Part shown: piece by piece, positions 1,682-32,343 of the stretch | How positions within the stretch are numbered: position 1 is the stretch's first letter | Layout of the letters: each line of letters opens with the position of its first letter | NCBI GenBank assembly: GCA_029879645.1 | Contig: JAOUPX010000019.1 | Coordinates: forward strand, 1-35,845 | Length of the DNA: 35,845 nucleotides | DNA from: Nitrospinota bacterium | GTDB taxonomy: Bacteria; Nitrospinota; Nitrospinia; Nitrospinales; Nitrospinaceae | Direction of reading: 5' to 3' | Made by a program: the position numbers and the translations under genes | Notes under the pieces: model-generated | The model's input: the letters and a program-made list of their open reading frames with translations, nothing else | Databases searched by the model: none | Told to the model about the DNA's origin: nothing

Positions 1682-1987
1682 TTACGCAGAAAGCACCTTA
1701 ACTTCCCGCAAGAGCCTAGTTTTCAATTTTTGTTTTTCACATTGAAGATCATAGCGCGATTGAAGATTAGCCCAAAAGCTTTCCGAGGTCCCGAAGTATC
1801 GCGATAACCTCAGAGCCGTGTCGGGACTGACCCCCCGCTTTTCATGAATAATCTCGTTAATCCGGCGTGGAGGAACACTGATATCCTTCGCCAAACGGTA
1901 CTGGCTGATTTCCATCGGCTTCAAAAACTCTTCCAGCAGAATTTCCCCTGGATGAATTGGACTTAACAGTTTCTTTGTTTTACTCAT
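1682..1987 (-). CDS. higA: HigA-type antitoxin (XRE-family helix-turn-helix)
   Basis: The 101-residue protein begins with the HigA/VapI signature: I-H-P-G-E-I-L-L-E-E-F-L, then S-Q-Y-R-L-A-K-D-I and a recognition-helix region P-P-R-R-I-N-E-I-I. The helix-turn-helix spans about residues 25-65, and R-L-S-R-Y-F-G-T-S-E-S-F-W follows as in other HigA proteins. HigA binds and neutralises HigB and represses the operon. It is the second gene of the pair, 8 bases after higB, with an AGGA-type Shine-Dalgarno before the ATG. The toxin-first order is typical of higBA. It is convergent with msrP, with 9 bases between the stop codons. Confidence 0.92.
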   Translation of the reverse strand: MSKTKKLLSPIHPGEILLEEFLKPMEISQYRLAKDISVPPRRINEIIHEKRGVSPDTALRLSRYFGTSESFWANLQSRYDLQCEKQKLKTRLLREVKVLSA

Positions 1988-1995
1988 GATTTATC

Positions 1996-2277
1996 CTAAT
2001 GATAATCCACAATCTCCACATCAAACGCATCTCCATTGTTCCAGATAAAACAGATGCGCCACTGCAAATTTATACGTATGCTGTACTGACCCTCTCGGTC
2101 GCCCTTCAGTTTTTCCAAATGATTGGATTGAGGAATCCTTAAATCGATCAAGGCCGATGCCGCTTCCAATATTTCCAATTTTCGACGGGCTGATCGGATT
2201 ATTTCAGAGGGAAACTTCCTGGATCCTATCAGGTTAAATAACTTTTCGGTTTCCTTACATTTAAACGACTTAATCAT
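1996..2277 (-). CDS. higB: HigB-type mRNA-interferase toxin (RelE/ParE superfamily)
   Basis: The 93-residue product has the HigB/RelE-superfamily pattern: an N-terminal M-I-K-S-F-K-C-K-E-T strand, a basic helix (I-I-R-S-A-R-R-K-L), P-Q-S-N-H-L-E-K-L-K-G-D-R, then Q-Y-S-I-R-I-N-L-Q-W-R-I-C-F-I-W and a final V-E-I-V-D-Y-H. HigB cleaves mRNA on the ribosome and is held inactive by HigA. The W-R-I-C-F strand and C-terminal His are where family members carry catalytic residues. The ATG at 2277 overlaps the last codons of a relic SUMF1-fold reading frame and has no strong Shine-Dalgarno. A good promoter lies about 50 bases upstream. Confidence 0.92.
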   Translation of the reverse strand: MIKSFKCKETEKLFNLIGSRKFPSEIIRSARRKLEILEAASALIDLRIPQSNHLEKLKGDREGQYSIRINLQWRICFIWNNGDAFDVEIVDYH

Positions 2278-8530: not shown

Positions 8531-10195
8531 TCACTCGTCCATGTCGTCAAAAACACCTGAGGCGAGGCTTTTGCGGGCGGTGCGGGCTTCCTGTTCAGCG
8601 CGGGTGATTCCCTGATCGTAATCGTTGTGATCGACAAATTTCAATGCCGGTTCCATTTCCGGATGTTTCTTCAAGTACAGTTTGGTCATGGTCTGGCAAA
8701 CCCTGCGGTATTTGGGATGTCCCGCCTTCTGCGTACGCAATTCCGTAAAATGCCCCAGCTCCCTCAGGTTCATTCCCATGTTCCACCGAATGAAATGATT
8801 GAACAGGGAAGCATATTGCGCTTCGGCACGCATACCCGCTCGAATCAAATCATGATATAAACTCTCTGCCCTCTCAAAACATTCCTGCGCCATCTCTCCC
8901 TGTCCGATTTCCTGTATCTCTTCGGGTATCGAGTAGCCAAGCAAAACCCCCATGTCCTGTCTTTGCTGGGTCAGCATTCGGTGTCTCTGCAGATCGCGGT
9001 ATTCGGCAAACCCGGCCACGATATCGAAGTTGATGGGATAGCCGTATTCCAGCGCACGACCGGGGCGGTCGCGTTTCGATTGCCGTTCTCCGATATAAAC
9101 CGTAAAAATTTCATTACGCTTTGTTTCCGGCAAAGTGCGGACAATCCTGCGAATCTGTTCGGTGGGGTGCTGAACGTATGGAAAGATCATCGAGGCCAGA
9201 AGATTGACCGGATAATCCTCATTTTTGTCTTCCAGCAGAACCACCTCGGGCGAAGACTCAATGGCGACCCCCTGGAATAAATCATCGCATAACGTACGCA
9301 TGGCGCGGTCGATGCTTATTCGGTACTCTCTTTTTGCGGCACGCTTAATGAATGTCGGAATTTGCGAGTCGAGCGCTTCCTTTATTCTCCCGGCCAGTTC
9401 CTGCGCCTCGCTCAAGTCCTGACTGAGCAGTTTGGAAATGAGTCCGGAAAAAAATCGTCCGTTCCCGACCAATCCCAGATTCGCCTGTGTTGCGGCGGGC
9501 AGGATGCACCGGATCACATCGCAAGCGGCGCTTCGGATGGTGAAGTTGTAAGCAATGCGGTGCGCACGCTGTTCGTTATCATCCGCCAGGTCCTTCGAAC
9601 CTGCTTTACGGGTTTCTCCGTTGCGTTCCACTTCGATCTGAAACTGTTCCGCCGGAAGACGCTTGCGGAATAATTCCTGCATCGGTTCGACCATGCCGGC
9701 GTAGGTCTCGAAAATGAATTCCATCGTCCGCACATATGTATCCTTTAAACCTGAGGCCATGATATTGGCGGGACACACGTAGCGCCACCGCCCTTCCCTC
9801 TGCTGGTCGTACAATACGTAACGTGTGGATTCTTCGATGGGCGAACCGCCGATGCGACAATCCTCAATAATCTTGGTCATGAGGTTGGAGGTTTCCTCGA
9901 TGCACAGCGGAGCGACCGCCAGCTCTGCCACCGATTCGTCGCCGAACTTGTTAACGACGCGATCGATCATCTCACTACCCTTAACGTCGTTGGGAGAACC
10001 GTCGGAATTGAGGAACTCGCGCGCTACGGTTTCCTTGAATCCGGTGGGAGCACGGCTGTATCTGGCAAGCGCCGCACCAATCACCTCCGGATTGAGGTTT
10101 TTCAGGGAAAACACCTTGGCTTCCACATCCGTCAGATAGGGTACCAGGATGGCTTTCTCGTGGTCGGTCAGCTCATCACTTCGTTTGGGTTTCAT
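8531..10195 (-). CDS. Long ThyX (Thy1)-like protein with two ThyX-type halves
   Basis: This product of about 554 residues is over twice the usual FAD-dependent thymidylate synthase ThyX (about 220-250). It appears to hold two ThyX-like halves. The ThyX signature is R-H-R-x2-S-x-N-E-x-S-x-R-Y. The N-terminal half (about residues 113-126) reads C-R-I-G-G-S-P-I-E-E-S-T-R-Y, keeping the S..E.S.RY part but not RHR. The C-terminal half keeps R-H-R (404-406) but continues M-L-T-Q-Q-R-Q-D-M-G. Whether it methylates dUMP is unknown. The frame is open back to 10288, but ATG 10195 (M-K-P-K-R-S-D-E-L-T) is favoured because the longer form would run 113 bases into the upstream SUMF1-fold gene. The chosen start still overlaps that gene by 20 bases, suggesting coupled translation. 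Confidence 0.75.
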   Translation of the reverse strand: MKPKRSDELTDHEKAILVPYLTDVEAKVFSLKNLNPEVIGAALARYSRAPTGFKETVAREFLNSDGSPNDVKGSEMIDRVVNKFGDESVAELAVAPLCIEETSNLMTKIIEDCRIGGSPIEESTRYVLYDQQREGRWRYVCPANIMASGLKDTYVRTMEFIFETYAGMVEPMQELFRKRLPAEQFQIEVERNGETRKAGSKDLADDNEQRAHRIAYNFTIRSAACDVIRCILPAATQANLGLVGNGRFFSGLISKLLSQDLSEAQELAGRIKEALDSQIPTFIKRAAKREYRISIDRAMRTLCDDLFQGVAIESSPEVVLLEDKNEDYPVNLLASMIFPYVQHPTEQIRRIVRTLPETKRNEIFTVYIGERQSKRDRPGRALEYGYPINFDIVAGFAEYRDLQRHRMLTQQRQDMGVLLGYSIPEEIQEIGQGEMAQECFERAESLYHDLIRAGMRAEAQYASLFNHFIRWNMGMNLRELGHFTELRTQKAGHPKYRRVCQTMTKLYLKKHPEMEPALKFVDHNDYDQGITRAEQEARTARKSLASGVFDDMDE

Positions 10196-11096
10196 CGACG
10201 GGATCTTTGGCGCACCGAAAACCGGTGTCATTGAAAAGGACTTCTGGACGACTCCATCGGCGGAACGCGCTGTGCAGGGTATCTTCAAAATTTACCCACG
10301 ATCCGCCACGCACTACTTTGAATCTACCGGTCTTTGGTCCCTTAGGGTTATAGTTAACCTTCTTTTTGTAATAATTCCGGTCGTACCAGTCTGATACCCA
10401 TTCCCAGACGTTACCAGCCATATCGTGCACCCCGTAAACCGAAATACCTGTGGGATAGCTTCCGACATTTGTCATGGTTTCTAACCCCCGCCACTTTCTG
10501 CGGTAGGTCGCCTTGCCGGGCGGAGAACTGTTCCCCCATGGATACAGGTTTCCTGAGGGGCCGCGGGCGGCTTTCTCCCATTCCGCCTCAGTGGGCAAGC
10601 GTTTTCCCCGCCATTGACAATAAGCCACCGCATCGTGCCAGTTCACCTGAGTCACCGGCTGATTGCGGATTTTATCGGGAAAACCGGTTCCCGTCCATAA
10701 ATTCCCCTGTCGGCAGGCCTTTGTCTCACAGGTATCATCCAGTGCCGGACGATGCCCCGTCGCCTTGACAAACTCAAGATAATTTTCGTTGGTGACCTCG
10801 TAAATATCTATCCAGAACATGTTTAAATCAACCAGGCGGCCGGGCAATTCATCCTTAAACCACCAACGGGTACAGGACTTGTCCACGTTGGTACACATAT
10901 CCAGTATCTGATCAGTCTGGTTGAAGGTCAAACCCATCCGGAAACGGCCCGCCGGAATCAAAACCATATCTGAGTAATCGTCTTTAAATTCGTCAGGTGC
11001 ATCCACGGTATCCGCCCAAAGAACGGACGGCGCTTCTGAAACAAGGAAAGAAGCAAGGAGAAGACAAAGAACTACGAACTGGGCGCGGCTGAACAT
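10176..11096 (-). CDS. Exported SUMF1/FGE-sulfatase-fold protein, second copy
   Basis: A signal peptide (M-F-S-R-A-Q-F-V-V-L-C-L-L-L-A-S-F) precedes a complete SUMF1 domain: M-V-L-I-P-A-G-R-F-R-M-G, Y-E-V-T-N-E-N-Y, P-V-T-Q-V-N-W-H-D-A-V-A-Y-C, R-L-P-T-E-A-E-W-E-K-A-A-R, M-A-G-N-V-W-E-W-V-S-D-W-Y, R-G-G-S-W and T-G-F-R-C-A. As in the copy at 2.4-3.1 kb, the catalytic cysteines of formylglycine-generating enzyme are missing after R-G-G-S. A cysteine-containing insert (D-M-C-T-N-V-D-K-S-C-T and D-D-T-C-E-T-K-A-C) could form periplasmic disulfides. ATG 11096 is chosen; three TTG codons lie just before it. Its last codons overlap the start of the thyX-like gene. The substrate is unknown. Confidence 0.87.
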   Translation of the reverse strand: MFSRAQFVVLCLLLASFLVSEAPSVLWADTVDAPDEFKDDYSDMVLIPAGRFRMGLTFNQTDQILDMCTNVDKSCTRWWFKDELPGRLVDLNMFWIDIYEVTNENYLEFVKATGHRPALDDTCETKACRQGNLWTGTGFPDKIRNQPVTQVNWHDAVAYCQWRGKRLPTEAEWEKAARGPSGNLYPWGNSSPPGKATYRRKWRGLETMTNVGSYPTGISVYGVHDMAGNVWEWVSDWYDRNYYKKKVNYNPKGPKTGRFKVVRGGSWVNFEDTLHSAFRRWSRPEVLFNDTGFRCAKDPVDETQTK

Positions 11097-11147
11097 CAAC
11101 AACAATCAAATCTTCCAGAGGTAAGTTGAATAATTAAGGAAAGAACT

Positions 11148-11690
11148 TTATTCAGCGCCGGTTTCACCGGGGCCTTCTTTAAATCGGGACATCTCCTTGC
11201 CATGTATATAGAACAGGATTAACCCAAGTATCATATTAACGGTGTATAGCATTTCCACCCGCATATGGTAACGATCAAATTGAACCTGCAGGCGTTGATC
11301 AGCCGGATTGGCCTGCTTGAGTTTATCCACCGCATGCATTTGCGGACTCAGAATACTGCCGATATACAAGGCCACAACCATCATAATGACAAACAGAATC
11401 TGCTTGGTGTACCTTTTTTTCGTAACTCTATTGTCTGTGTAACCCGCCCAACCCTTTTTCTCGGCCAACAATTGGATTATCACTGCAAAAAGCATAAAAC
11501 CCAGACACCAGTAAATAATCTGGGTATTAAAAAAGTCCATGATACGGTTCATCACCTGGCTTTTAAGAGGTTGCTCCACCATTCTGCGAACAACGCTTTC
11601 CACCAAAATCCCCAGCAAGAACATCCCGCCAACCCACAGGGACAGGGAAAACAGATAAAGCCAGTTGGTAAAATGAATGAGACGCTTCAT
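11148..11690 (-). CDS. DUF4149-like integral membrane protein
   Basis: The product of about 180 residues has four predicted membrane helices: L-Y-L-F-S-L-S-L-W-V-G-G-M-F-L-L-G-I-L near the N-terminus, W-C-L-G-F-M-L-F-A-V-I-I-Q-L-L, I-L-F-V-I-M-M-V-V-A-L-Y-I-G, and V-N-M-I-L-G-L-I-L-F-Y-I. The W-V-G-G-M-F start and the I-L-S-P-Q-M-H loop resemble DUF4149/TMEM205-type proteins, whose function is unknown. ATG 11690 is used; an upstream in-frame TTG at 11711 has a better-spaced AGGTGG and may be the true start. It lies between a small membrane protein gene (37 to 57 bases away, depending on the start) and the second SUMF1-fold gene (about 50 bases), so all probably share a transcript. Confidence 0.72.
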   Translation of the reverse strand: MKRLIHFTNWLYLFSLSLWVGGMFLLGILVESVVRRMVEQPLKSQVMNRIMDFFNTQIIYWCLGFMLFAVIIQLLAEKKGWAGYTDNRVTKKRYTKQILFVIMMVVALYIGSILSPQMHAVDKLKQANPADQRLQVQFDRYHMRVEMLYTVNMILGLILFYIHGKEMSRFKEGPGETGAE

Positions 11691-11747
11691 CTTGCTATGG
11701 ATACTCCCCAATCGAATCCACCTATAATATTGGGCGCCCTCAGGCGC

Positions 11748-30408: not shown

Positions 30409-32343
30409 ATGATCACTGCAGGAACAGATGATTGCATTCCCGGTCCGGGCGACGCCTTATTGATCGTCGATGTGCAAAACGATTTTTTGCCCGGCGGCAG
30501 TCTGGCGGTCCCCAAGGGTGATGATGTGGTTCCCGCGCTGAACGGATACTCCTCTGCATTCCGTTCGCGCCACCTGCCGATTTTTGCCAGCCGCGACTGG
30601 CATCCCGCCCATCATTGTTCCTTTGCAAAACAGGGAGGCCCGTGGCCGCCGCATTGCGTGGCCGAAACACCGGGTGCACAATTCGCCGCTGGCCTGGATT
30701 TGACGGGTGCGGTCATCATCAGCAAAGCCACTGCCCCGGAAACTGATGCGTACTCTGCCTTTGAAAGCACCGATCTCGATTCGCGTTTAAAACAGGCGGG
30801 CATCAAGCGCCTTTTTGTCGGCGGACTGGCAACCGATTACTGCGTGCTGAATTCGGTGCGCGATGCGATTCGGCTCAATTATCAGGTGATCCTGCTGGAG
30901 GACGCCATCCGCGCGGTCAACGTCCACCCCGAAGACGGAGCTAAAGCCATCCACGAAATGCTGGAGTTGGGCAGTCGGCCCGCCACTCTTGAATCCGTAA
31001 GCCTTGCTCCACCTGCAACTCCGTCGATCTTAACGGACCTGTACCAACTGACCATGCTCAAGGCATATCACGACCGCGGTATGAACCGGACCGCCGTCTT
31101 TGAGTTTTATATCCGCAACCTGCCGCCGCAACGCAATTTCCTGATGGCCGCCGGGTTGGAACAGGTTCTCCAATACCTGGAAAATCTCCGATTCACCCCA
31201 CAGGAGAGGGATTGGATGAAAAGTTCCGGCCGGTTCCCCGCGGACTTTGTCGATGCCCTGGAGGATTTTCGATTCACGGGCGAGGTTCATGCTTTGCCGG
31301 AAGGCACAATCTTCTTCGGCAACGAGCCGGTGTTGAGAATTGCCGCACCCCTGCCGCAGGCGCAACTGGCCGAAACCCGCGTCATCAACATTCTGCAAAT
31401 GCAGATCATGGCGGCCTCGAAAGCGGCGCGGATGGTGCTGACCGCTCCCGATAAAATACTTTTGGATTTCGGCCTGCGCCGTGCGCATGGTGCAGAGGCA
31501 GGATTGTTCGTGGCGCGCGCCAGTTATATCGCTGGTTTTACCGGATCGGCGACGGTACCGGCGGAACCCTGTTACGGCATCCCGGTATTCGGCACCATGG
31601 CGCATTCCTACATTCAGGCGCACGAAGATGAAACCACCGCCTTCCGGGACTTCGCCCACTCCTGGCCGGACAATACCATTTTACTTCTGGATACCTACGA
31701 TACCGAACAGGCCGCGCATAAGGTGGTGGCGCTGGCCCGCGAACTTCAGAAGGAGGGCATCTCCATCAAGGGAGTGCGATTGGACAGCGGGGACGTGGAT
31801 CAGCATTCAAAAAAAGTCAGAACCATTCTGGATCAAGGGGGATTGCAAAATACACTGATCTTCGCCAGCGGCAATCTCGATGAATACGCCCTCGCACAAT
31901 TGATGGCCAAGCAGGCGCCGATCGATGGTTTCGGCATCGGTACCCGACTGGCAGTATCCGAAGACGCGCCCACTCTGGAATGCGTGTACAAAATTCAGGA
32001 ATATGACGGGCAACCGCGGCGCAAACGTTCCGAAGGCAAATCCACCTGGCCCGGCAGAAAGCAAATTTACAGAACCTTCGACACACACGGTAAAATGCAG
32101 GAAGATTATATTGCGCTGGAAGACGAATCACTCACAGGAGAATCCCTATTGAAACCCTGCATGAGGAATGGGAAACGATTGAGTCCTCCAGTCCCTCTGG
32201 AGCAATGTCGCAAACATGCCGTCCGGCAGCTGGATCAACTTCCCGATAAGCTCCGCTCTTTGCAGGCGGCACCCCCCTACCCCATCCACATTTCACAAAA
32301 AATACGAGACCTGGCCAACCGCCTGGACCGCGATTCAGCATGA
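30409..32343 (+). CDS. pncA-pncB: Nicotinamidase - nicotinate phosphoribosyltransferase fusion
   Basis: The 644-residue chain joins two consecutive enzymes of NAD salvage. Residues about 10-195 are a nicotinamidase: D-V-Q-N-D-F (catalytic Asp21), metal site D-W-H (Asp63, His65) with His82, Lys106 in I-S-K-A-T, and nucleophile Cys145 in G-L-A-T-D-Y-C-V. Residues about 206-640 are nicotinate phosphoribosyltransferase: L-T-D-L-Y-Q-L-T-M, F-E-F-Y-I-R-N-L-P, D-F-G-L-R-R-A-H-G, F-G-T-M-A-H-S, G-V-R-L-D-S-G-D and G-F-G-I-G-T-R-L. Together they convert nicotinamide to nicotinate and then to nicotinate mononucleotide. There is no internal stop or frameshift, and a linker of only about ten residues separates the domains. 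All key residues I can check are present, so both halves are probably active. Confidence 0.93.
   Translation: MITAGTDDCIPGPGDALLIVDVQNDFLPGGSLAVPKGDDVVPALNGYSSAFRSRHLPIFASRDWHPAHHCSFAKQGGPWPPHCVAETPGAQFAAGLDLTGAVIISKATAPETDAYSAFESTDLDSRLKQAGIKRLFVGGLATDYCVLNSVRDAIRLNYQVILLEDAIRAVNVHPEDGAKAIHEMLELGSRPATLESVSLAPPATPSILTDLYQLTMLKAYHDRGMNRTAVFEFYIRNLPPQRNFLMAAGLEQVLQYLENLRFTPQERDWMKSSGRFPADFVDALEDFRFTGEVHALPEGTIFFGNEPVLRIAAPLPQAQLAETRVINILQMQIMAASKAARMVLTAPDKILLDFGLRRAHGAEAGLFVARASYIAGFTGSATVPAEPCYGIPVFGTMAHSYIQAHEDETTAFRDFAHSWPDNTILLLDTYDTEQAAHKVVALARELQKEGISIKGVRLDSGDVDQHSKKVRTILDQGGLQNTLIFASGNLDEYALAQLMAKQAPIDGFGIGTRLAVSEDAPTLECVYKIQEYDGQPRRKRSEGKSTWPGRKQIYRTFDTHGKMQEDYIALEDESLTGESLLKPCMRNGKRLSPPVPLEQCRKHAVRQLDQLPDKLRSLQAAPPYPIHISQKIRDLANRLDRDSA

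Follow-up and report, generated by a model that had tools for sequence, protein, structure and literature searches.

The flavin-dependent thymidylate synthase (FDTS) ThyX is a target for antibacterials, and studies of its inhibitors regard it as an enzyme with four identical sites. The single-domain proteins of this family (PF02511, TIGR02170; T. maritima TM0449, 1kq4) are about 220 aa long and carry one complete motif per chain, with four such sites in each tetramer. In PolB, the substrate is contacted by Phe79, Arg82, His83, Arg86, and Arg193 from one monomer and by Glu94', Ser96', Ala97', Arg98', and Arg166' from its neighbor (PMC5003785). The published account of M. tuberculosis (Mtb) ThyX assigns the RHR (95-97) and Arg199 to subunit A, Arg87, Ser105, Arg107, and Tyr108 to subunit C, and Ser71 and Arg190, which contact FAD, to subunit B (PMC6514825). 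When we convert the PolB and Mtb residues to T. maritima (Tm) numbering through the motifs, the tetramer dUMP site consists of the RHR and Arg174 from one subunit and Glu86, Ser88, Arg90, and Arg147 from another.

The window examined here, by which we mean the whole stretch of 35,845 nucleotides, comes from a Nitrospinota genome of 3.2 Mb that is 94% complete, and it encodes a ThyX of 554 aa rather than about 220. The gene occupies positions 8531-10195 on the minus strand, counted from an ATG and with the stop included; a longer frame started by TTG reaches 10288, and relatives align from MKPKR. Pfam Thy1 (PF02511) matches the protein in two stretches (E 7.9e-31; 107.8 bits against a gathering score of 24.8) and was the only domain found in it, the ThyA domain (PF00303, Thymidylat_synt) being absent from the same search, while the equivalog cut-off of the NCBIfam thyX model TIGR02170 is missed (48.5 vs. 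87.9 bits). The Pfam matches and profile-profile alignment resolve this ORF into two ThyX domains fused in tandem, an N-terminal one at residues 20-292 (9320-10138, minus strand) and a C-terminal one at residues 300-545 (8561-9298, minus strand), which hhalign aligns to single-domain ThyX with local E values of 3e-12 and 8e-16, respectively. The start of the ThyX gene shares 20 bases with an FGE-sulfatase-domain gene (10176-11711, minus strand), and a DUF4149 gene precedes the latter. Both neighbors recur beside tandem ThyX, the FGE gene at 27 and the DUF4149 gene at 26 of 30 loci (L002-L031). Elsewhere in the window are an HTH and HigB-like gene pair that is likely a type II toxin-antitoxin module (1682-2277, minus strand) and a 644-aa ORF in which an isochorismatase (nicotinamidase-like) domain is fused to a nicotinate phosphoribosyltransferase (30409-32343, plus strand).

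Structure prediction of the monomer, proposed in an earlier sequence-only reading of this gene, gave a confident AlphaFold2 model of the whole chain (pLDDT 93.8, pTM 0.91, 81 sequences). Because a fold search with this model reached no further than the N-half, we folded the C-half separately as well (pLDDT 92.5, pTM 0.85); the alignments held 80 relatives each. The N-half model matches M. tuberculosis ThyX 3gwc_C with Z 12.6 and 4.2 Å over 211 residues, and the C-half model matches ThyX 3fnn with Z 12.4 and 3.9 Å over 151 residues; unrelated chains in the search reach Z 3-4. Both pairs of values are from VIA-align, which we quote for the C-half because its Foldseek rmsd is high (11-18 Å). As modeled, both halves have the ThyX fold.

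The two halves differ in which parts of the ThyX site they retain. As the sequence-only reading had noticed, the N-half carries the substrate-recognition motif SPIEESTRY (S118-Y126; 9818-9844, minus strand). It contains the equivalents of Tm E86, S88, R90, and Y91. Across 98 non-redundant homologues, which come from numerous phyla and also from phages, Glu121, Ser123, and Arg125 of this motif are present in all 98 and Tyr126 in 97, and Arg229 (Tm Arg147, a dUMP phosphate ligand; 9509-9511, minus strand) is again found in 98/98. The RHR position of this half is degenerate (9854-9862, minus strand). That reading had correctly seen that the RHR is gone, since 0/98 N-halves have it intact, but had taken the replacement to be C-R-I; the triplet is D112-C113-R114, in which Arg114 is the old Arg80, kept in 78/98, and the loss amounts to Arg78 and His79. 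A further N-half element is GDES, residues 85-88 (9932-9943, minus strand), in which Ser88 corresponds to the FAD-clamp residue Thr55 (Tm) or Ser71 (Mtb) and Asp86 replaces His53.

The C-half presents the complement. Its flavin motif R404-H405-R406 (8978-8986, minus strand) reads RHR in 96 and RHN in 2 of the 98 homologues, and profile-profile alignment with single-domain ThyX sets it on Tm 78-80 (E 8e-16), which answers the earlier concern that this second RHR might lie outside the ThyX position. The dUMP-base loop E485-R497 (8705-8743, minus strand) includes Arg487 (Tm Arg174) and has G-H-x-x-Y-R in place of AQWEIR. Arg404, His405, Arg487, and Arg497 are invariant (98/98), with Arg406 and His493 at 96/98 each. 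At the substrate-recognition position (SRP) of this half, Q410-G416 (QQRQDMG; 8948-8968, minus strand), the E-x-S-x-R pattern has been lost, as had been read from the letters, and E.S.RY occurs in none of the 98 C-halves.

These counts draw on relatives (58 of 61 genomes matched), 10 plasmid records, 6 phage records, 19 IMG/VR loci, and 80 GTDB contig loci kept of at least 578. Five partial homologues (L048, L050, L065, L133, L134) and, by clustering at 85% identity, 34 of the 132 full-length ones were left out before the 98-row counts were made. Among all 132 full-length homologues, redundant ones included, RH (404-405) and ESxR (121-125) are each present in 132, far more than chance would give, and since the layout is the same in every one of these rows, we reject a frameshift or an assembly fusion as the origin of the long frame. 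No domain carries a complete RHR..S motif, and the full set of both residue groups is found in neither half of any of the 98 homologues, so that the family-wide alignment of both motifs that the sequence-only reading had called for returns an invariant split. Aligning the halves jointly with 22 single-domain ThyX gives the same division position by position: R78, H79, and R174 stand at 1.00 each in C-halves and at 0.03, 0.02, and 0.19 in N-halves, while Thr/Ser55, S88, R90, Y91, and R147 stand at 1.00, 1.00, 1.00, 0.99, and 1.00 in N-halves and at 0.02, 0.68 (counting both Ser and Thr; Ser alone in 19/98), 0.15, 0.18, and 0.00 in C-halves. Pooled over one chain, the dUMP and FAD contact residues are all present, Glu121, Ser123, Arg125, Tyr126, and Arg229 from the N-half and Arg404, His405, Arg406, and Arg487 from the C-half, with the exception of His53. 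Gln180 and Glu144 occur as such in neither half, Gln180 having become His in 96/98 C-halves.

Set against the published tetramers, the subunit-A residues sit in the tandem C-half, the subunit-C residues in the N-half, and the subunit-B residue Ser71 (Tm Thr55) in the N-half as well. By this residue-level comparison, the tandem halves divide the active site along the same line as the subunits of ordinary ThyX. Duplicated enzymes often contain a pseudo-enzyme half, and one could therefore imagine that catalysis belongs to the N-half alone, with the C-half a relic serving structure or regulation, or that these roles are swapped. Such an arrangement is highly improbable given that both halves hold invariant catalytic residues and that the ones missing from each are exactly those that a neighboring subunit supplies in ThyX. 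The halves very probably must join to make thymidylate. The idea of one composite site built from both, raised from the sequence alone, is thus supported by the invariance of the complementary residues, their match to the published subunit split, the ThyX folds of the models, and the lack of another synthase described below.

We envisage that an ancient duplication and fusion of thyX gave a flavin-dependent thymidylate synthase in which two chains would assemble as a pseudo-tetramer, a predicted homodimer imitating the four-subunit enzyme. In each live site, a C-half would supply the flavin-binding RHR and the dUMP-activating Arg487, and an N-half would supply Arg229 and the recognition peptide with Glu121, Ser123, Arg125, and Tyr126. 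Ser88, which clamps the FAD phosphates, belongs to an N-half too, so the third contributor is presumably the N-half of the second chain, and a live site would then combine one C-half with the N-halves of both chains. If the assembly has 222-type symmetry, each dimer would hold two complete sites and two empty ones; one face of each abandoned site would lack the RHR and the opposite face the recognition peptide. The model predicts that each 554-aa chain binds one FAD and that a dimer has two sites, not four. We regard this duplicated and fused ThyX, forming a two-chain pseudo-tetramer with two live composite sites and two abandoned ones, as a well-supported model, with the dimer, its geometry, the two live sites out of four, and dTMP synthesis as its predicted elements.

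An alternative within this model concerns the source of the FAD clamp. Arg165, the other clamp residue, is kept about equally in the two halves (74/98 N-halves, 82/98 C-halves), so the choice of an N-half as third contributor rests on Ser88. If the conserved C-half Arg478 (Tm Arg165, the 82/98 above) and the conserved basic stretch R..RR.KPGR at the C-half clamp position together formed the clamp, then the enzyme would still be composite, but its two live flavins would face each other over a C:C interface, and the recognition peptide would be all that the N-halves contribute. We consider this geometry unlikely, since the clamp position Ser/Thr55 is Ser in 98/98 N-halves and is Ser or Thr in just 2% of C-halves.

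The one contact residue lost from the pooled set, His53, is the folate-stacking residue of ThyX. It is conserved in 22/22 single-domain ThyX and is replaced by Asp in 74/74 cellular tandem N-halves (Asp86 at 9938-9940, minus strand, in the window protein), while 20 of 24 viral or plasmid tandem rows keep it. We take cellular tandem ThyX to be a natural H53D form; structures of the T. maritima H53D mutant (4kar, 4kas) were among the fold-search matches, and a literature search on H53D found nothing on the mutant enzyme. The changes from His53 to Asp and from Gln180 to His may alter folate binding or chemistry.

With His53 replaced by Asp in cellular copies and a complete ThyX motif in neither half, one could suppose that the fusion no longer makes thymidylate and instead carries out another flavin or nucleotide reaction, an alternative that the sequence-only reading had offered. 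The genomes argue strongly against it. Tandem ThyX is matched in 60/64 genomes of the window's order, some of these matches being cut by contig ends. The search for a normal thyX or thyA suggested earlier found ThyA in 0/77 Nitrospinota genomes (PF00303 is also absent from the genome of the window) and single-domain ThyX only outside this order, where 9 of 13 other Nitrospinota genomes of the class have a match of 208-250 aa. Thymidine kinase, which could offer a bypass, was likewise found in 0/77, and DHFR in 5/77, four of them above the cut-off; controls for these enzyme searches were positive in 9, 8, and 9 of 14 genomes. Four genomes of the window's order (G033, G039, G052, G064), one of which (G033) is 92% complete, have no thymidylate synthase of either kind, which may reflect assembly loss or another enzyme.

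In 43 other tandem genomes from many phyla, neither a second ThyX nor ThyA was found, and all Thy1 matches fell in one long frame per genome. These 43 were picked for spread from the 80 GTDB loci; since each was included for its tandem form, the informative result there is only that they lack both ThyA and a second ThyX. Tandem ThyX is matched in 110/116 Chlamydiota genomes, and among the matches listed the best one of each genome falls within a 531-738 aa frame, with one exception of 341 aa (G189); 30 Chlamydiota copies, read individually, show the same split, with nine split-site residues invariant. From these matches, the ThyX of C. trachomatis is very probably of the tandem type, and isolated C. 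trachomatis ThyX served as an active enzyme in a published study (PMC3498832). The lost-function alternative is thus rejected, with a very small probability left to it: searches of the lineage found neither another thymidylate synthase nor a thymidine kinase, the tandem protein is likewise sole in 43/43 other genomes, and with the halves taken together almost every catalytic residue is invariant. Since ThyA and thymidine kinase are missing and DHFR is nearly so in the 77 Nitrospinota genomes, and since the 43 others lack ThyA and a second ThyX, we conclude that the protein is almost certainly the working thymidylate synthase, with composite sites.

In several respects, then, tandem ThyX resembles its single-domain relatives, which share the fold of each half and the pooled FAD and dUMP residues and which likewise serve as sole thymidylate synthase where ThyA is lacking and DHFR mostly absent. 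It departs from them in its 554-aa length, its split motif, its two predicted sites per dimer, the change of His53 to Asp, and GHxxYR for AQWEIR. The tandem form is the sole thymidylate synthase of many bacteria and archaea, chlamydiae probably among them. A fuller statement seems to us likely: labor is divided between an N-half handling the substrate phosphate and FAD clamp and a C-half handling the flavin and base activation, half of the sites have been given up, jumbo phages carry this form, and nearly all Chlamydiota, as well as many Nitrospinota, Binatota, Chloroflexota, CPR bacteria, and DPANN archaea, have no other thymidylate synthase.

We built a quick tree from 17 tandem and 22 single-domain proteins; in it one branch sets apart the N-halves, another the C-halves, and another single-domain ThyX (SH-aLRT 98, 96, and 86). 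One fusion followed by spread is therefore the simplest reading, and several independent fusions are not favored, with the caution that the tree is rough owing to some long branches. In both half-clades, the Bacillus plasmid type is the first to branch off, and it retains the SQRY and AQWDIR of ordinary ThyX. Two such genes (L035, L038), with RHN for RHR and with SQRY and AQWDIR kept, lie on Bacillus and Paenibacillus plasmids of about 210 kb. Phage and plasmid proteins more generally (Tunturi_5, MaMV, the 212-kb plasmid of Bacillus licheniformis) have the same two-domain layout and split motif at about 22-33% identity to the window protein. No split-gene intermediate was found among the homologues; in one 408-aa copy (L134) the N-part is shortened and both halves lie in one frame. 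Short pieces of a tandem-ThyX C-terminus stand downstream of an intact gene in two genomes (G038:C148:2463-2696 and G025:C8:23514-23654), one of them with a stop, and are possible remnants of further duplication.

Public records already give long ThyX proteins the name FAD-dependent thymidylate synthase, and Griffin et al. reportedly studied the C. trachomatis enzyme in 2005, so what is new here is the divided site and not the existence of the enzyme; the open papers searched gave no account of tandem or long ThyX, nor of a split site. If the ThyX of chlamydiae and other lineages is a two-domain enzyme with a pair of composite sites and Asp for His53, then inhibitor and kinetic models of it would need revision. 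Tandem ThyX would also be a clean natural example of duplicated halves sharing out an active site along an ancestral subunit line, and it offers a way to ask whether half of the sites suffice for ThyX to function.
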